A DNA stretch of 55,938 nt from Candidatus Accumulibacter regalis (lineage in GTDB: Bacteria > Pseudomonadota > Gammaproteobacteria > Burkholderiales > Rhodocyclaceae): the NCBI GenBank assembly GCA_000585075.1, contig JEMY01000076.1, forward strand, positions 1 through 55,938, read 5' to 3'. Below, piece after piece: positions 5,032 through 55,938 of the stretch. A program made the position numbers and the translations under genes. The notes under the pieces are model-generated. The model saw nothing but the letters and a program-made list of their open reading frames with translations. It did no database searches and was not told the origin of the DNA. Positions within the stretch are counted from its first letter, which is position 1; each line of letters begins with the position of its first letter.

Positions 5032-6042
5032 ATGGCGAAGAGCGAGGAAATGGAAGGAATCGACCTGGCAGCGGTCATCCGGGAGATCGGACGCGGCGCA
5101 GCCGGTGCGCGCGACATGCCCTGCGGCGCAGCAGAACAGCTCTACGGCGCCATTCTCGATGGGCAGGTACCGGACCTCGAACTGGGCGCCATCGCCATCG
5201 CCCTGCGCATGAAGACCGAAACAGTCGACGAGATGGCCGGCTTTCTTGCCGCGGCCAACGCGCGCCTGCCAGGCCTTGGCCGCCCACCCGGCCAGCTGCG
5301 CCCGGTCGTCATCCCGACCTACAACGGCGCCCGCCGCAGCGCCAACCTGACGCCGCTGCTGGCGCTGCTCGTGCAACGCTTTGGCGTACCCGTCCTGGTA
5401 CACGGCCTCGCCGACGACTACGGACGCGTCACCAGCGAGCAGATCTTCGCCGAGTTTGGTTTGCCGGCGTGCGCCAGCCTGGCCCAGGCACAGCTGGCGA
5501 TCGACGAATTCGGCCTGGCCTACGTGCCGCTGCCACTCCTCTCGCCCGGCCTCGATCGACAACTTGCCTTGCGCAGCCGTCTCGGCCTGCGCAACAGCGC
5601 CCACAGCCTGGTCAAGATGCTCGACCCCTTCCACGGCGAAGCCTTGCTGCTGGCAGCGGCGACGCACCCCGACTACATCACCAGCATGCGCGCCGTGCTC
5701 ACCGCCACCGGCGCACACGCCCTCCTCCTGCGCGGCAGCGAAGGCGAGCCCTTCGCCAATCCCAAACGCCGCCCGCAGATCGAGCATCTGCACGATGGTG
5801 CCTGCGACGTCCTCTTCGAAGCCGAACGCGACAGCCTCAGGGTCCTGCCGCAACTGCCCGCCACCTGCGACGCCGGCAGCACCGTCGCCTGGATGCACCG
5901 CGTCCTCGCCGGCGAAGCGTCGCTGCCGCTGCCGATCGCCAATCAGCTTGCCTGCTGCCTCTACGCCTGCGGCCGCGCCAGCGACTTCAACCAGGCGAAA
6001 GCGCTGGTCGCCGTCGAATGCAGCGGGCTGGCGGTCGCCTGA
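5032..6042 (+). CDS. ybiB: DNA-binding protein YbiB (TrpD2/anthranilate phosphoribosyltransferase fold)
   Basis: A 336-residue member of the nucleoside phosphoribosyltransferase class III fold, related to TrpD. It begins with the helical TrpD N-domain (ELGAIAIALRMKTETVDEM, then FLAAAN). The C-domain follows with VIPTYNGARRSANLTPLLALL and KMLDPFHGEALLLAA. In YbiB proteins the TrpD catalytic residues are lost, and the E. coli protein is known as a nucleic-acid binding protein of the LexA/SOS regulon. A ribosome site (GGAGAG) precedes the ATG. The gene lies 20 bases after nasA and is probably co-transcribed with it. The link to nitrate assimilation is positional only. Confidence 0.83.
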   Translation: MAKSEEMEGIDLAAVIREIGRGAAGARDMPCGAAEQLYGAILDGQVPDLELGAIAIALRMKTETVDEMAGFLAAANARLPGLGRPPGQLRPVVIPTYNGARRSANLTPLLALLVQRFGVPVLVHGLADDYGRVTSEQIFAEFGLPACASLAQAQLAIDEFGLAYVPLPLLSPGLDRQLALRSRLGLRNSAHSLVKMLDPFHGEALLLAAATHPDYITSMRAVLTATGAHALLLRGSEGEPFANPKRRPQIEHLHDGACDVLFEAERDSLRVLPQLPATCDAGSTVAWMHRVLAGEASLPLPIANQLACCLYACGRASDFNQAKALVAVECSGLAVA

Positions 6043-6101
6043 GGCGCCGCCGAAAGCAATCGTCGGGGCCCACCAGCCCCTGAACCACACGGAGTACCCC
6101 C

Positions 6102-6479
6102 ATGAAGCGCCAGAGAGCCACCGTCATCGTCGAGATCGACGGCAAGATCCTGCTCGTCGAAAACCGCGGCGGACTACTGCTGCTGCCCGGCGGCGGCATC
6201 AACGCGGACGAATCGCACGCCCAGGCGGCCGCCCGCGAACTCACTGAAGAAACCCGCCTGCTCTGCGCTTCGCTGCAGTTCCTCTTCAGCCACGAATCGC
6301 AGACCAATTGCCACCATGTCTTCCGCGCCAGCGCCAGCGGCACGCCGCTCGCCGGCGACGACGCCATGGCGCTGCATTTCTTCGCTCGCGGAGACCTGCC
6401 GCTGAGCGCCAGGATGTCGGCGGCAACCCGGCAGATCATCGAGCGCTTCGAGGACACATGCCCGGCAGCAGCCGGCTGA
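6102..6479 (+). CDS. Nudix hydrolase
   Basis: A 125-residue single-domain Nudix protein. The Nudix box runs from G31 to L53 (G31, E37, R45, E46, E49, E50), so all catalytic metal-binding glutamates are present. The glycine near the end of the consensus box is replaced by R52. Members hydrolyse nucleoside diphosphates linked to another moiety; the substrate cannot be told from sequence. The histidine- and phenylalanine-rich stretch TNCHHVFRASASG follows the box. The start follows a weak GGAG-containing leader and gives the usual family N-terminus. It lies 59 bases after ybiB and could be the last gene of that transcript. Confidence 0.85.
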   Translation: MKRQRATVIVEIDGKILLVENRGGLLLLPGGGINADESHAQAAARELTEETRLLCASLQFLFSHESQTNCHHVFRASASGTPLAGDDAMALHFFARGDLPLSARMSAATRQIIERFEDTCPAAAG

Positions 6480-7196
6480 CCCCGACGGCGAGGGGCAGCA
6501 GCCAACGCGCTTCCTCAATCGAGGGCGTCATGCAATACATGGCTTTCGCCGCGCTGGCAAGCAAGTGGAATGCTGCAAACGTGATCAGACTTTCAGCGAC
6601 CCTGACAGCAGCGTGAAGCCCGTGTCGCGACCGGCTTTCGCCCGGCCGATACCGCTGCCCTCGTCACCCACTCCGGGCAACCATTCCCCAGCCACCGTCA
6701 TTGCGAGGAGGCGTAGCCGACGCGGCAATCCAGTTCCATTCTCTGACGACTTATCCGCCACATCAGCCAGGCGAATAGCAAAACCTCTGGATTGCCACGT
6801 CGGCTACGGCTCCTCGCAATGACGTGCGGGCGGGTGTGGCGCCACCTTTCTGACGACGCTTTCAACACGCCGGACAGCCCTTGAAACCAACTCGTCGCTG
6901 GCATCCCTATGTTCCACACTGCGTGCAGCACTCTAATGGCGGCAGCCACCAGCCGGAGTTCCCGGAGCACTTTCCCTGAACTGCCTGCACACGGTCGATG
7001 CAAAAGCCCGGGACGCCGTCGGAGCTCAGCACGCGGCGAGCGATACACGCCCGATCACGCCAGGTGATCGCCCACTCGCATTTGAAATATCGGCGACAGG
7101 CGACTAGGGTTATAGGACCTGCTGACACTTCGCTGTGCGCAATCCGGAGCGTGTTATCAGGATTTCTTTCAATCCGGAAAAGACAAGGAGGACGCC
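6480..7196. other. Long non-coding stretch holding a palindromic repeat
   Basis: About 700 bases with no recognisable gene. The middle is a dispersed repeat with a long inverted repeat, listed separately. The part after the repeat has open frames on both strands, but none has a family resemblance, a convincing start or a ribosome site. An AAGGAGG just before the ATG at 7197 marks the beginning of the next gene. Confidence 0.6.
6682..6923. repeat. Dispersed palindromic repeat, full copy (REP/MITE-like)
   Basis: Two 38-base arms (6696-6733 and 6787-6824) are reverse complements at 36 of 38 positions. They start with CGTCATTGCGAGGAG, end in GGCAATCCAG and flank a 53-base centre. The flanks are part of the unit too: CATTCCCCAGCCACCGTCATT before the arms and CACGCCGGACAGCC...TTGAAACC after them recur in the copy near 47.8 kb. 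CATTGCGAG...CAATCCAG palindromes are, from memory, widespread in proteobacterial genomes. There is no transposase inside, so it would have to move in trans if it moves at all. Confidence 0.8.
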
Positions 7197-7625
7197 ATGG
7201 GATTTCTCGACAAGCTGTTCGGCGGCACGAAGGACTACCCACCGCTGCCGGAAGACAATGCGGCACAGGCCAGACTTGAGCAGGTGAAAGGCCCTCTCGA
7301 AGAGTTGGCCCAGCGCGTTTCAGACCCCCTGGAGGTGGTTCCAGCCGACAGACAGGCCTTTGTTTTTGTTGGCAAACCTCCAAAACGTTTTGGCATCGCA
7401 TGGGTCCACGACGACAAGGTGAGTGGCCTCAAGGAGCTGGCAGACGACCACAAACTGTCGCAGGTCGAAGTCGGGAAAATGATCAATGAACTGGGCCAAG
7501 CGTATGAGCATGCCAGCGCTGCACCGCGCTTTTCAACCGAGGTTGGCGGCAAGAAGGTGGTGGTCATCCCCTCCGACGGCCTCGAGCGGGAGGTTCATCA
7601 GATCATCGAACGCGCGACACATTAA
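7197..7625 (+). CDS. Hypothetical protein, 142 residues
   Basis: I do not recognise the family. The protein is soluble with no signal peptide or membrane segment. It starts with MGFLDKLFGG, a short amphipathic opening often seen on small cytoplasmic proteins. It continues through an acidic helical region (ARLEQVKGPLEELAQRV), a strand-like part with VGKPPKRFGIAWVHDD, and a C-terminal half ending in VVVIPSDGLEREVHQIIE. A very strong ribosome site (AAGGAGG) lies 6 bases before the ATG, which supports real translation. The gene is isolated, flanked by the palindromic repeat and by a decayed universal stress protein. Confidence 0.6.
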   Translation: MGFLDKLFGGTKDYPPLPEDNAAQARLEQVKGPLEELAQRVSDPLEVVPADRQAFVFVGKPPKRFGIAWVHDDKVSGLKELADDHKLSQVEVGKMINELGQAYEHASAAPRFSTEVGGKKVVVIPSDGLEREVHQIIERATH

Positions 7626-7939
7626 GCCTCGACCTGCCGCGAAGTCGGCGGCATCAGGCTGAGAGCCGCTCAGAGCGGCAAGGGAGGTCACTTACGGCGG
7701 GGTCACCACGGTGGCCCCGGCGCATTTTTGCGACAATGCCTTTCGCCGCGGTTCAGCCGCGCGGCCCGAGTCCGGAACGACGACTAAGGGGACTTCGCCT
7801 TTTCCTGCGCACGCGGGCGGCATTCACGCTGCATCGACTGCCTTCGCCGGTGACGGGGTGGCACGCATTGCGATGGCCTGCGTCGATCAATCGCACTTTC
7901 CCGAGCATCTGGCCGGACTACGCGGCCTGGGCCGCGTGA

Positions 7940-8152
7940 CGCCTGGCGACGCCGCTGGAGTTCCTGCACGTCGTCGACCACCATCCGGAGATCGGCTTTG
8001 GCGACGACGACGGGGCAATCGGCGCCGACGCGCCCAGGAAGAATTGCTCAGTCGCCCTCTCCAGCGGCGACGCACTGCGCAGTCTGCTCTTCGGCAGCAA
8101 GACCTCTGATCTGCTGCGCTCGGCCACCATCCCGACCCTGTTGCTGCGCTGA
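7940..8152 (+). pseudogene. Universal stress protein (UspA) remnant
   Basis: A reading frame without any start codon encodes LATPLEFLHVVDHHPEIGF, which resembles the first strand and helix of a Usp domain. It ends in LRSLLFGSKTSDLLRSATIP followed by TLLLR and a stop, the classic Usp C-terminal strand with the FGS nucleotide-loop motif. The segment joining the two (about DAPRKNCSVALSS) is far too short, so the middle of the domain is missing. The start is also lost: the same frame is interrupted by TGA at 7937-7939. I infer an internally deleted, decayed Usp gene. Confidence 0.5.
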
Positions 8153-8489
8153 CCTCCCGCGGCGTTCGCCCGAGGCGGCGGGAACGGGGACCTCTCTCGC
8201 GGCGTCGGACCTGCCCGCTCGTGATCCCGTCAGGTGACTGCATTGGGGCGCCTGTGCCGAGAGCCGGCGGGCGGGCGATACTAATAGGATTAGAATCAGC
8301 CTGACACGGCAAGCCCATAGACGCCGCACCCCGCTACACTTCCGGCCACGGCATCACCACTGGCGAAGGCCCGCGCCCCATGCTGCCTGCCGAACTGGCT
8401 CGCTGGCGGCGCGGGCCGGCAAGGCTCGCCGTGCTGCGCCAAGCCAGCCCGCTGGCTCGGCCGGCGTCGAAGACCACAGGATCCTCGCG
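8153..8489. other. Intergenic stretch, no gene seen
   Basis: About 340 bases between the stress-protein remnant and the PLD-FHA gene. Short open frames exist but show no family resemblance. An AT-richer patch (GATACTAATAGGATTAGAATCAG without its last bases, around 8278-8300) is the only plausible promoter-like part. No clear -35/-10 pair or terminator is visible. Confidence 0.4.
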
Positions 8490-9728
8490 ATGCACCAGAA
8501 GATTTCGCTCATCGTGCAACCCGGAGACAGCTTCTTCCCGATCGTTCGGGCGATCGACCATGCCGATCACACGATCAACCTGACCGTCTTCCGCATGGAC
8601 GACCCGATCATCCAGCGCGCACTCATCGAGGCCCGCCAGCGGGATGTCCGCATTCGCGTGCTCATCTCCAGCAGCGCCCGCGGCTGGCGAGAGCAGAACC
8701 ACAAGCTGGTCAAGGAAGCCACCGAGGCGGGTATCGCCACCCGAGAACCCGCTGGCGACAGCAAGCGCGCGCGCTACCACTACAAGATGATGACGGTGGA
8801 CGACAAGGAGGCCTTCGTATTCACCTTCAACCCGACGCGCGAAAACCTGCACTACGCGCGCGACTTTGGCATCGAGGTCTTCAGCCCGGCCATCGCCGGC
8901 GAGATCAACCGTCTGTTCGACGCCGACTGGCACGACCGGCCTTTCCTAGCCGACCACGACTCGCCCCTGCTGGTCAGTCCATTCAACAGCCGGCAGAAGA
9001 TGACCGACCTGCTCGCCGCTGCGACGAGTTCGATTCAGATCACCGACGCCAAGCTGCAGGATCCGGCCATTGTCGCCCTGCTCGTGAAGAAGGCGCGCAG
9101 CGGTATCCCGGTTCGCGTCCTCGGCGACGAACGGCACACCAGCAGGCTGCCGGCAGAGATCGCCTTTCGCGCCGTTGCACGCTACCGGCTGCACGCCAAG
9201 TGCACGATCATCGACGGCGCCACGGCGGTCATCGGCAGCATGAACCTGCGCACGGAGAGCCTTGATCGGCGCCGCGAACTGTCGATCACGGTTGACGATG
9301 GCGAGGTCCTGCAGCGCCTGAACGCGGTCTTCGAAAGCGACTGGGAACGCCGGGCGGCGCCCCGCTCCGACAACGTGACAACGCAGGTACTGCGGGCGTT
9401 TCCGCCAGCGCGCCCGGAGCCTGCTGAATCGCCCGCGCCGGGCCTGGTGCTGATCTCGCGCAGCAACACGCTGCTGCGCCACGTCATCAACGACGGGACG
9501 ACGAGCATCGGACGGGCGGAGGAGAACGATCTGGTGATCAGAGACCCCTCGGTCAGCCGATATCACGCCCGCATGGAGCTGGATGCGGGCATCTGCACGC
9601 TGACCGACCTCGACAGCGGCAACGGCACCTTCGTCAACGGTGAGCGGATCGCGGGCGAGAAGTGGCTGCGTCCTGGCGATGTCCTCAGCTTTGCCCGGAG
9701 CGAAGAGTTTCGCCTGCTCGAAGTCTAG
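8490..9728 (+). CDS. Phospholipase D-like protein with C-terminal FHA domain
   Basis: A 412-residue cytoplasmic protein. Residues about 5-150 and 160-290 are two phospholipase D half-domains, each with a full HKD motif (H97, K99, D104 and H235, K237, D242), so an active phosphodiesterase or phosphatidyltransferase site can form. A Pro/Ala-rich linker (about 303-318) leads to an FHA domain (about 322-412). It has the phosphothreonine-binding residues G341-R342, S356-R357-x-H359 and N378-G379. The catalytic part resembles minimal cardiolipin synthases and PLD nucleases but has no membrane segment. The FHA domain suggests recruitment by a threonine-phosphorylated partner. No Ser/Thr kinase is next to it. 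The substrate (lipid or nucleic acid) is undetermined. Confidence 0.85.
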   Translation: MHQKISLIVQPGDSFFPIVRAIDHADHTINLTVFRMDDPIIQRALIEARQRDVRIRVLISSSARGWREQNHKLVKEATEAGIATREPAGDSKRARYHYKMMTVDDKEAFVFTFNPTRENLHYARDFGIEVFSPAIAGEINRLFDADWHDRPFLADHDSPLLVSPFNSRQKMTDLLAAATSSIQITDAKLQDPAIVALLVKKARSGIPVRVLGDERHTSRLPAEIAFRAVARYRLHAKCTIIDGATAVIGSMNLRTESLDRRRELSITVDDGEVLQRLNAVFESDWERRAAPRSDNVTTQVLRAFPPARPEPAESPAPGLVLISRSNTLLRHVINDGTTSIGRAEENDLVIRDPSVSRYHARMELDAGICTLTDLDSGNGTFVNGERIAGEKWLRPGDVLSFARSEEFRLLEV

Positions 9729-53306: not shown

Positions 53307-55277
53307 TCACCACAGCTTGCGCGTATCGAGCCAGCTCACCCGCCCGGTGCGCCGCTTGACTTCGTGGTACATGTGCGCGGTTCCGCCGCGGCCGTCGCCG
53401 CCACCGCCGTTCCACAGGCAGATGAAACGCACCTTGTCGATCCCCCAGGCCAGGGCCGTATACAGCAGCCAGAGGTTGCAGCGCTCGTAAGCGTTCGCCG
53501 CTTCGCCGCGCACGTCTGTCGGCAGCGAACCGAGCTCCGCCGGCATGATGCGCGGCTCGTCGGCGAGCATGGCGGTCAGCGTGAAATAGCGCTGCCGCCA
53601 GTGCTCGCCGTTGCTCGCCGGCAGGACCGAGCGCTCGATGAACTCGGGCTCCTCGAAAGGCAGCATCGGTTGCAGGCGGACGCCGCGCGCCTGACACGCT
53701 TCCAGAAACAGCAGGTCGCCACCGCTGGCGGCCTGCGACAGCGCCAGATCACCGGCGCCCGCGCCGAGCTGGTCGAGCGCCTCGGCGATCCTCGCCGCCG
53801 CCAGCGCCTCCCTGTCGGCCGGAAAGCGCGGCGGTTCGCGGCCGGCAGCGTCGATCATGTGACCGCTGAAGAGCAGTACCTGGCGCGGCTCGAACGGCGG
53901 GCTGCTGCGCTCGATCTCGCGTTCGACGATGGCCAGCGCGGCAGCCGTCTCGGCTGGCCGGAAGTCGATGTCGCGCAGCAGGTACAGCGTCTGGCGACTC
54001 GAATCGAGCGCGAACCAGTCGCGGTTGGCCGCCGCCACCATGTTCGCGTATTCCTTGCCGACGCTGGCCAGCGGATTGACCAGCAAACAGAGTTCGGCGT
54101 AGCTGGCGCGCGCCCAGTAGTCCTTGCGGTCGCGCTCCTGGGCGGTCAGGCTGGACCACAGGACACCACCGATGAGGTTGTCGATCACCGTCTGGCTGGT
54201 CTCGCCGCCACAATGCCGGCGCAGCAGTTGCAGGGTCAGCGCGTTGATCCCCGAGTAGTGGTGCGCCGGGTCGGCGATGAAAGCCTGGTAGTAGGGTTCG
54301 ATGGCCTCGCCGAGCGCCGCATTCTCGTGCCTGGCGGCGGCCTGCATCTGTGCTGGCGTGAGCCCCGGCTGGCGCCAGCGCGCCAGCCAGCTCTCCTTTT
54401 CGACGCGCCCGAGCAGGGCCCAGCATTCGGCATCGCGAGGATAGTCGCGGGTCAGCTGCCGCACCCACTCGCGCGCCTCCTCGAAGCGGCCCAGGCGACC
54501 CAGGCAGACCGCCTTTTTCTCCCGGCTGGCCTTGTCGTCGGCGTCGATGGCCAGCGCCAGGTCGAATTGCTCGAGTGCCAGCTGATACTGCTTGAGCTTG
54601 AGCAGGGCGTTGCCGGCAGTGCGTTTGGCTTCGCGGTGCAGGGCGCGGATCGGCGTCTCGTCGGCGAGCACGAGAATGTCGCCGGGACGGTTTTTCTGCC
54701 GCGCAATCTCCATTCGTCGATCCCAGCTGGCATGGGCGTCGGAAAACTCGTTGCGCTGCTCGAGCAGCAACTGCCGCCACTGCGGCTGTTCGAGATTGGG
54801 GATCAGCTGAAAGACCGGGCTCACCTTGCGCCGCGTCGAGCTGGCCATGCTGGCGCGCACCATCGCCGTCAACGCCGCACAGTCCGCCGCCAGAGTCGCC
54901 GGGTCGGGGGCGCCGTCCTTCAGCGTGTAGCGCAGCTTGCGATCGGTATAGATGTCGAAGGGCTGGCTGGGGCGCGGCCCCTGCACCAGCACGACGCCGC
55001 GCGCGCGCAGCGCGTGGCGGACGCCGAGCTCGTACCAGACATTCGGATTGTCGAGCGTCAGGTCGGCGACGACCAGGTCGGCAAGCAGCAGCTCCTGGAA
55101 CATGTCGGCGCGGATGTCGCCGGGACGCTCCTCTTCGTCGGCCCGGAAGACCTCCATCCCGGCCGCCTCCAGCGCCGGCCGGATGTACTCGGCGTACACG
55201 CGATTGAAGTCGATCAGCTGCCCATCGTGCCCCGGCTTGCTGCCGAAAGGCATGGCGACAAAGGCGTGTGCTTTCAT
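53307..55277 (-). CDS. TIR/deoxyribosyltransferase-like-TPR-SLOG-like signalling protein
   Basis: A 656-residue soluble protein. Residues 1 to about 120 are a nucleoside 2-deoxyribosyltransferase/TIR-like domain: HAFVAMPFG, then ADLVVADLTLDNPNVWYELG with E83 at the position of the catalytic glutamate. Helical TPR-like repeats follow (about 195-300: KTRAGNALLKLKQYQLAL-type and RLGRFEEAREWVRQL). Then comes YYQAFIADPAHHYSGINALT, typical of the MAP3K TRAF-binding (DUF4071-like) region. The C-terminal part has LLFSGHMIDAAGREPPRFPA, then ASGGDLLFLEACQARGVRLQ and MLPFEEPEF, like SLOG/LOG nucleotide-binding domains. It stands alone on its strand. The role in signalling or defence is an inference; domain names are from memory. 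Confidence 0.72.
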   Translation of the reverse strand: MKAHAFVAMPFGSKPGHDGQLIDFNRVYAEYIRPALEAAGMEVFRADEEERPGDIRADMFQELLLADLVVADLTLDNPNVWYELGVRHALRARGVVLVQGPRPSQPFDIYTDRKLRYTLKDGAPDPATLAADCAALTAMVRASMASSTRRKVSPVFQLIPNLEQPQWRQLLLEQRNEFSDAHASWDRRMEIARQKNRPGDILVLADETPIRALHREAKRTAGNALLKLKQYQLALEQFDLALAIDADDKASREKKAVCLGRLGRFEEAREWVRQLTRDYPRDAECWALLGRVEKESWLARWRQPGLTPAQMQAAARHENAALGEAIEPYYQAFIADPAHHYSGINALTLQLLRRHCGGETSQTVIDNLIGGVLWSSLTAQERDRKDYWARASYAELCLLVNPLASVGKEYANMVAAANRDWFALDSSRQTLYLLRDIDFRPAETAAALAIVEREIERSSPPFEPRQVLLFSGHMIDAAGREPPRFPADREALAAARIAEALDQLGAGAGDLALSQAASGGDLLFLEACQARGVRLQPMLPFEEPEFIERSVLPASNGEHWRQRYFTLTAMLADEPRIMPAELGSLPTDVRGEAANAYERCNLWLLYTALAWGIDKVRFICLWNGGGGDGRGGTAHMYHEVKRRTGRVSWLDTRKLW

Positions 55278-55380: not shown

Positions 55381-55830
55381 TCAGCGGGCAACGACGCGAG
55401 CGCCGTCGCCATGCCCCTCGACATAGACCACCTGCCCCTTGCGCAGGCCCGCGACGCCGGGCTGGGTGACCGAAATCAGGATGCCGCTGCCGGTACGAAC
55501 GACGATCTGCTGCCCGGGAACGGGCTGCGCATGGGTTTTCTCGACTTCGTTACCGGCGACCGCTCCGCCAACCGCTGCCAGCACCATCGCCACGTCGCGG
55601 CCGCTACCCGCACCGATCAGGCTGCCGACACTCAACCCGGCCAGACCGCCGACCACCGCGCCGACACCGGCGTGATGGGAGGTCGGCAACGGGACGTCGA
55701 CGATCTGTTCGACCACGCCGGTACGAACCCCCATTTCCCCCGCCTGCTGGCCGACGCCCGCACAGGCGGCGAGGAAGCCAAGCAGGGCAAGGACCGACCG
55801 GCGGGACGGGAATCCGTGCACCAGGGCCAT
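55381..55830 (-). CDS. Glycine-zipper outer-membrane lipoprotein (SlyB/Pcp-like)
   Basis: A 149-residue lipoprotein. The lipobox LAAC ends a hydrophobic signal (SVLALLGFLAAC). A glycine-zipper segment follows (VGAVVGGLAGLSVGSLIGAG and VAMVLAAVGGAVAGNEVEK), typical of SlyB/Pcp proteins that insert in or lie under the outer membrane. The C-terminal strands (QQIVVRTGSGILISVTQ, then GLRKGQVVYVEGHGDGARV) complete the family. The start is uncertain; a frame 17 codons longer is open, but the signal peptide fits the inner ATG better. The gene is close to the window edge and has no obvious partner. Confidence 0.82.
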   Translation of the reverse strand: MALVHGFPSRRSVLALLGFLAACAGVGQQAGEMGVRTGVVEQIVDVPLPTSHHAGVGAVVGGLAGLSVGSLIGAGSGRDVAMVLAAVGGAVAGNEVEKTHAQPVPGQQIVVRTGSGILISVTQPGVAGLRKGQVVYVEGHGDGARVVAR

Positions 55831-55938
55831 CGCCGGGGAACGGGCGCGGCTCGGCAGGCGTGCAGCCGCCGCAGAATCCACCGCTAGCGTTTCCGGGGCG
55901 CGCGCTGGCGCCGGGGGGGCGCGCCTGCCGCACCCGCC

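Follow-up and report, generated by a model that had tools for sequence, protein, structure and literature searches.

A DRHyd-TPR-S-SLOG protein of Candidatus Accumulibacter regalis is probably the signalling centre of a modular conflict-type system with exchangeable effectors

The primary paper on the bacterial origin of ASK signalosome components is reportedly that of Burroughs and Aravind (2020, J Bacteriol), in which the TPR-S region is said to have been proposed as a sensor of NAD-derived signals. Components of the animal ASK signalosome have been traced to bacterial conflict systems (PMC8195603). In Thoeris, a TIR enzyme makes cADPR-type signals that are read by a SLOG-bearing effector (PMC11204291), and type IV Thoeris is described as using a caspase-like protease as effector (PMC12847820). 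DRHyd domains, which are related to TIR, are described as enzymes of conflict systems whose substrates are nucleotides or NAD+ (PMC7159879, PMC9503650); the second of these papers describes the YpsA-like clade as including cADPR sensors (PMC9503650).

We analysed a window of 55,938 nucleotides from Candidatus Accumulibacter regalis, calling genes as stop-to-stop open reading frames with no trained gene finder. The gene of interest encodes a protein of 656 residues, here called the core. An earlier note on this DNA had placed it correctly at 53307..55277, to which we add that it lies on the minus strand. Its features are as follows.

53307..55277, minus strand: core coding sequence, a DRHyd-TPR-S-SLOG protein of 656 aa (open reading frame with ATG at 55277 and stop at 53307)
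54837..55277, minus strand: N-terminal deoxyribosyltransferase/DNPH1-like (DRHyd) domain, residues 1-147 (predicted fold)
55029..55031, minus strand: codon of Glu83, the candidate catalytic residue (conservation and alignment to DNPH1)
53898..54737, minus strand: helical TPR region, ASK1-like, residues 181-460 (predicted fold)
54231..54590, minus strand: Pfam TPR-S, Tetratricopeptide Repeats-Sensor (4.2e-21, 75.9 bits, cut-off 27.6)
53310..53888, minus strand: C-terminal SLOG domain, YpsA-like, residues 464-656 (predicted fold)

The three-part architecture that had been claimed for this protein, with an N-terminal enzyme fold, a TPR middle and a SLOG C-terminus, is upheld by Pfam and by the predicted folds. 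The AlphaFold model of the full-length protein, computed with 55 aligned sequences as input, has a pLDDT of 88.8 and a pTM of 0.86 and is confident for most of the chain; no residue is below 50 pLDDT, and of the 56 that fall at 50-70 some are in the N-terminal domain. Fold searches with parts of this model, a check proposed beforehand, gave matches that include DNPH1 for residues 1-144, ASK1 for residues 181-460 and YpsA for residues 464-656. The signatures VAMPFG (residues 7-12), NPNVWYELG (residues 77-85, with E83) and GINALT (residues 343-348) are all present as previously read. Foldseek with the whole model gave TPR-type chains among the matches listed, and a sequence-only PDB search with the whole protein gave, in the best 60 of 137 matches, TPR or helical proteins over the middle and little else. 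The domain assignments are far beyond chance. No protein kinase family occurs among the 18 Pfam families matching the protein at E up to 1, and judged by its sequence it is not an ASK kinase.

For comparison we used the best 80 of 245 confirmed relatives, drawn from one-genome-per-species contigs. By record title these are mainly Betaproteobacteria, the other hosts being Nitrospira, Methylococcaceae, Chlorobiaceae, Deltaproteobacteria, a planctomycete and a member of the Ignavibacteriae. All except two (78/80) align to the core over essentially its whole length, although one of these 78, L070, has a broken frame; the two partial relatives are L011, which is ended by its contig, and L012, which covers residues 67-656 only and thus lacks residues 1-66. 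The closest relative, L003, is 92% identical to the core. Three alignments were made: A1, with 54 of the 80 loci plus the window, hand-picked with near-duplicates and truncated rows (including L012) dropped; A2, with 24 of the loci, the window and 3 paralogues; and A3, with 24 of the loci and the window. The A1 sequences share with the window protein, on average, 72.6% identity over residues 1-150, 51.8% over 231-349, 44.2% over 350-460 and 65.6% over 464-656, the middle as a whole lying at 44-54%. Thus, both Rossmann-type domains are tightly kept while the helical middle drifts, as would be expected if the middle recognises variable things.

The best structural match of residues 181-460 is the central regulatory region of ASK1, and Pfam places MAP3K_TRAF_bd at residues 284-441 (27.7 bits against a cut-off of 24.1). 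With TPR-S also above its cut-off, the earlier proposal of TPRs and an ASK-like TRAF-binding region in the middle of the protein holds. TPR-S by itself is not rare, since a control search found matches in 5 of 14 well-known genomes, above the cut-off in 2 of them. The proposed HMM check thus bore out the TRAF-binding part of the prediction; for the SLOG part, it gave only weak matches to YAcAr (YspA, cpYpsA-related SLOG), in 5 of 25 sequences with a best E of 0.032.

A C-terminal Rossmann domain of SLOG type had nevertheless been correctly anticipated, as the predicted fold of residues 464-656 is closest to YpsA. Its sequence profile, searched against the PDB, found only weak unrelated matches, mostly esterases, and the SLOG assignment was therefore drawn from the folds, the weak YAcAr matches and the genomic context. 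No ThsA SLOG chain occurs among the fold matches listed for this domain. Residues G472, H473, D476, R484, F485, P486, D510, G519, D521, E526, E543, R599 and N601 are each present in 55 of the 55 A1 sequences. The LOG motif is PGGxGTxxE; the corresponding motif here is GGDLLFxE, in which the spacing of GG and E is kept (G519 and E526 in 55/55, G520 in 54/55) and GT is absent. The domain might also cleave, as an N-glycosidase, instead of sensing.

The core gene had been described as stand-alone, with no kinase, caspase or nuclease adjoining it. This description is very probably wrong, because the end of the window is also the end of its contig, C76, because another contig of the same assembly, C66, carries effector genes, and because gene order and partner counts in relatives place such genes beside the core. 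C66 is 9473 bases long, and the frame of a giant protein runs off its end. The last 19 bases of C66 are exactly the first 19 of the reverse-complemented window, whereas other combinations of ends share 0-4 bases (the same junction read backwards excluded). In L003, the end of C66 maps to 5875-7366 and the end of the window to 7513-7969 and 7993-9139, on one strand; in L019, the two ends map to 6233-7734 and 7998-9139, respectively. From the overlap, the reading frame and the order in these relatives, we infer that C66 joins C76 and predict the gene order caspase-like, CHAT giant, Gly-zipper protein, core, as follows.

C66 2458-3354, plus strand: caspase-like open reading frame (Peptidase_C14, 3e-19), directly upstream of the CHAT giant
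C66 3396-9473, plus strand: hydrolase-CHAT giant, a 2026-aa open frame, 69% identical to the giant partner in a relative
55884..55938 of the window, minus strand: predicted last codons of the hydrolase-CHAT giant (from the 19-bp contig-end overlap, reading frame and L003/L019 order)
55381..55881 of the window, minus strand: gene for a small Gly-zipper protein, by eye a probable lipoprotein (Rick_17kDa_Anti, 24.5 bits, cut-off 24.2)

Pfam finds CHAT (1.2e-31), DUF7379 and LCAT in this giant. Its TPR-S match scores 27.2 bits against the cut-off of 27.6, and 34.8 bits by genome search; in the CHAT giant of L045, the TPR-S match is above the cut-off at 47.9 bits, which suggests a sensor common to producer and effector. 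The giant has SHSRGG and AHSMGG in its hydrolase part and SAHG and SCCH in its CHAT part, and the caspase-like frame has SGHG and DSCHSG, all of which we take to be motifs typical of active enzymes. The Gly-zipper gene is probably accessory. In L003, a similar stretch separates the CHAT gene from the core; none was detected in L019, and in L006, L008 and L011 the CHAT frame ends about 57 bases before the core, which leaves no room for such a gene. Upstream of the caspase-like gene on C66, at 2-1396 on the minus strand and thus opposite to it, is a patatin-like protein (1.5e-18), possibly outside the system. The genome also encodes, at C18:71447-72769, a second DRHyd-TPR-S protein of about 460 aa that is 33% identical to the core and has no SLOG domain; it lies near UPF0178-like and DEAD-box helicase genes (both identified by eye), and no effector was seen beside it.

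Within the genus, 17 genomes carry a CHAT giant with 69% identity or more, and in 13 of them a core adjoins it on the same contig and strand; of the other giants, three are ended by a contig end (G000, G002, G009) and one has no core (G018). These co-location counts are our reading of two match tables, and the genus genomes may overlap the 80 loci. The giant of G018 has one in-frame stop, as do those of G014 and G002, which retain the core. Conversely, a core that is full-length or almost so is present in 19 genus genomes, of which 4 (G001, G005, G022, G027) lack a giant at that level of identity. In two relatives (G010:C33:153461-154792 and G008:C33:38588-39922), the DRHyd-TPR-S paralogue is interrupted by a single in-frame TGA, and these copies may be decaying.

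In 57 of the 80 loci, the core has a recognised effector on its own strand no more than 4 kb away (BLAST to exemplars, at least 60 bits), a count that includes the exemplars themselves, which came from the same loci and were chosen as same-strand neighbours of the core. The classes are caspase plus CHAT giant, patatin, TIR-nSTAND1-WD40, SLATT and TIR. The other 23 loci have no recognised partner within 4 kb, and some, not all, of these are on short contigs. For hits of at least 80 bits, the gene is on the core's strand in 24/24 caspase-like, 32/32 CHAT-giant, 26/27 patatin, 5/5 nSTAND1 and 3/3 SLATT cases, where CHAT hits include ORF fragments and related genomes are not independent; there was no strand bias for TIR (4 same, 3 opposite) or the TIR-like WD exemplar (1 same, 2 opposite). 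Patatin directly follows the core in 16 of the 80 loci. By Pfam, the exemplar partners are Patatin, Peptidase_C14, CHAT, TIR_2, nSTAND1 plus WD40, and DUF4231/SLATT_3, with the TIR domain of the nSTAND1-WD40 type scored in L092; two further neighbour types (in L058 and L079) matched no Pfam family. The patatin and caspase exemplars match defence effector models of PADLOC; none of the CHAT-giant, STAND and SLATT exemplars has a match in PADLOC-DB. Near the core in one locus (L035:11787-13706) is a protein in which a DRHyd domain precedes a weak match to a macro domain (E 0.00076, below the cut-off); it may join a producer to an ADP-ribose reader.

We placed the partner classes on a tree of cores with 78 rows (L011, L012 and L070 left out), counting only the 55 labelled rows (31 CHAT, 21 patatin and 3 STAND), with three loci that have CHAT plus another class counted as CHAT. 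The class changes at least 10 times on this tree, compared to 14-23 times (mean 19.5) in 200 shuffles of the labels. Thus, some partners have descended together with the core and others have been exchanged; exchange is real, not rampant. We consider it probable, with about two-thirds of our confidence, that the core is the signalling centre of a modular conflict-type system, a nucleotide-signal switch for exchangeable death effectors.

Some match to the core at E 1e-20 occurs in 23 of the 28 genus genomes. In the family, 28 of 199 genomes (25 of the 165 good ones) and 13 of 68 genera have the SLOG domain; in 12 of the 28, it lies in an open frame of less than 310 aa, probably a separate small protein. 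Four such stand-alone loci were inspected: in L094, SLOG, patatin and DRHyd-TPR-S genes stand in a row, L095 has a CHAT giant upstream, and L093 and L096 have no recognised partner. A conjugative Rhizobium plasmid has a SLOG gene of its own (45% identical) immediately before a DRHyd-TPR-S gene, after which come SLATT, patatin and another DRHyd-TPR-S gene; on another such plasmid, a TIR-nSTAND1-WD40 gene is followed by SLOG. When two domains form one protein in some genomes and are encoded side by side in others, they very likely act jointly. Of 72,556 plasmid records, 60 match the core and none of these matches covers 80% of the protein; among 50,697 phage records, there are 2 weak matches to the N-terminal part only. 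An Agrobacterium plasmid (NZ_CP045855) carries a DRHyd-TPR-S gene plus a DUF4231 gene adjoining two TIR genes, together with genes for a 7-cyano-7-deazaguanine synthase and a DNA lyase and with transposases, and resembles a defence island on a conjugative plasmid.

The core might instead be a physiological sensor of stress or nucleotide homeostasis, responding to oxidative or nucleotide damage and steering lipid and protein turnover with no anti-phage role. High conservation and frequent presence in the genus agree with such a role, ASK kinases are themselves stress sensors, and a link between YpsA and oxidative stress has been described (PMC7272460). We nonetheless regard this explanation as unlikely, because the core is patchy in the family, because plasmid-borne partial relatives have transposases nearby, and because caspase/CHAT, patatin, SLATT and TIR-STAND partners are exchanged.

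The N-terminal domain raises another alternative. Residues 1-147 have the NDT/DNPH1 fold, the fold matches listed being DNPH1, NDT and MilB-type chains. Glu83, which aligns with the Glu of the YELG motif in DNPH1, is present in 55/55 sequences of A1 and in 28/28 of A2, the 3 paralogues included; D67, D76, N77, N79, R87 and R91 are likewise 55/55 in A1. Pfam Nuc_deoxyrib_tr gave weak matches in 6 of 28 members (best E 0.0053), with none listed for the window protein, and PHROG_3634, a family of unknown function, matches residues 25-121 at 8e-21. TIR_2 reaches 13.9 bits against a cut-off of 28, and we did not class the domain as TIR; a weak match to a TIR-effector model is the sole PADLOC-DB match of the core. 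In one genome (L098, G004:C21:40400-43000), a shortened core lies beside an intact-looking CHAT giant, residues 68-166 with E83 among them being missing within one open frame; it may be a decaying copy or a non-enzymatic variant. Retention of that giant implies that E83 is not strictly needed for the persistence of the pair, unless the copy is decaying.

The weak TIR_2 and PADLOC TIR-effector matches could mean that the DRHyd domain is itself the killer, depleting NAD+ directly, with TPR-S and SLOG purely regulatory and the neighbouring hydrolases acting as parallel effectors; DUF4062 TIR-like NADases are described as acting in this way in phage defence (PMC13174449). We think this improbable, as the folds listed for residues 1-147 are of DNPH1, NDT and MilB type and coupling to interchangeable hydrolases and proteases is an arrangement that belongs to a signal producer and not to an enzyme killing on its own. 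That effector genes adjoin the core by coincidence and that it acts alone, as the earlier note proposed, is very improbable and largely refuted by the strand counts, the 13/17 co-location in the genus, the contig-end overlap and the gene order in relatives, despite the 23 of 80 loci without a recognised partner within 4 kb, the 4 of 19 genus genomes with a core and no giant beside it, and the SLOG-less C18 paralogue with no effector seen adjoining.

As a signalling centre for exchangeable effectors, the core may work as follows. Stress or infection would be sensed, probably through the fast-evolving TPR region, upon which the DRHyd domain, with Glu83 as its catalytic residue, would cleave an N-glycosidic bond in NAD+ or in some other nucleotide. 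The product would be bound by SLOG, and perhaps by TPR-S, including the TPR-S-like region of the CHAT giant, thereby setting a threshold, and its binding would switch the partner on. This partner would be the caspase-like protease plus the lipase-type hydrolase/CHAT giant in the genome studied here and a patatin phospholipase, a SLATT membrane protein or a TIR-nSTAND1-WD40 protein elsewhere, and its activity would stop growth or kill the cell. Enzymatic activity of the core, a messenger derived from NAD, a SLOG domain that senses rather than cleaves, and phage defence as the outcome are what this scheme presumes. In its fullest form, a single polypeptide would combine the producer (DRHyd) and the sensor (SLOG and TPR-S) of a new nucleotide messenger and control plug-in death effectors, some of which (CHAT) carry the same TPR-S; it would be a CBASS- or Thoeris-like system with an ASK core at its base, and a surviving relative of the form from which the animal ASK signalosome arose. 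We advance this fuller version tentatively, at somewhat less than an even chance.

Because TPR-S is a named Pfam family and bacterial ASK ancestry is published, proteins of the DRHyd-TPR-S kind are already known from computation. The fused DRHyd-TPR-S-SLOG form with exchangeable effectors looks new, none having been found in the literature searched, which was available in part. That same partial literature yielded no experimental study of a bacterial DRHyd-TPR-S protein and, for DUF4071, papers on animals by title plus one on an Arcobacter plasmid; the main text of the DefensePredictor paper contains 0 occurrences of SLOG, caspase, patatin or deoxyribosyltransferase. The present analysis corrects the impression of a core protein working alone. 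If our reading is right, the locus offers a tractable bacterial ASK-type DRHyd-TPR-S core whose candidate active site is intact and which has a nucleotide-binding domain in the same chain, and in which one could ask what messenger, if any, an ASK-type core makes or reads, and test in a bacterial relative whether the N-terminal domain of ASK has an enzymatic function. DRHyd would then join TIR and CD-NTase as a class of producer in bacterial immunity that works through nucleotide signals, and its exchangeable effectors would fall into at least four classes.

Set against known systems, the core has the fold and the position of the catalytic Glu in common with DNPH1 and the nucleoside 2'-deoxyribosyltransferases, from which it differs in being multidomain and in a conflict-type context. 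YpsA-like SLOG proteins have the closest fold to its C-terminus, but at 13-14% identity only, and here SLOG is fused to DRHyd-TPR-S or encoded beside it. The DUF4062 TIR-like NADases (Swarozyc) also join a TIR/NDT-like enzyme to auxiliary domains in bacterial immunity (PMC13174449), but their partners and sensor differ, and DUF4062 is absent from the 18 Pfam families matching the core at E up to 1. The likeness to Thoeris is one of plan: a producer of an NAD-type signal, a SLOG sensor and an effector in one operon, the caspase-like gene being the predicted neighbour on C66. Thoeris pairs a TIR-domain producer, ThsB, with an effector that is a SIR2-SLOG ThsA, a macro or a caspase-like protein. 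The likely producer here is DRHyd rather than TIR, however, scoring below the TIR_2 cut-off and having DNPH1/NDT-type folds listed, and SLOG is on the producer chain, whereas in Thoeris it is on the effector; the core would work like Thoeris and is not a member of it. The ASK/MAP3K core and its bacterial TPR-S relatives are alike in having a DRHyd-like domain followed by a TPR-S/TRAF-binding region, but in the protein described here there is no kinase domain, SLOG occupies the C-terminus, and control is presumably exerted on separate effector genes.
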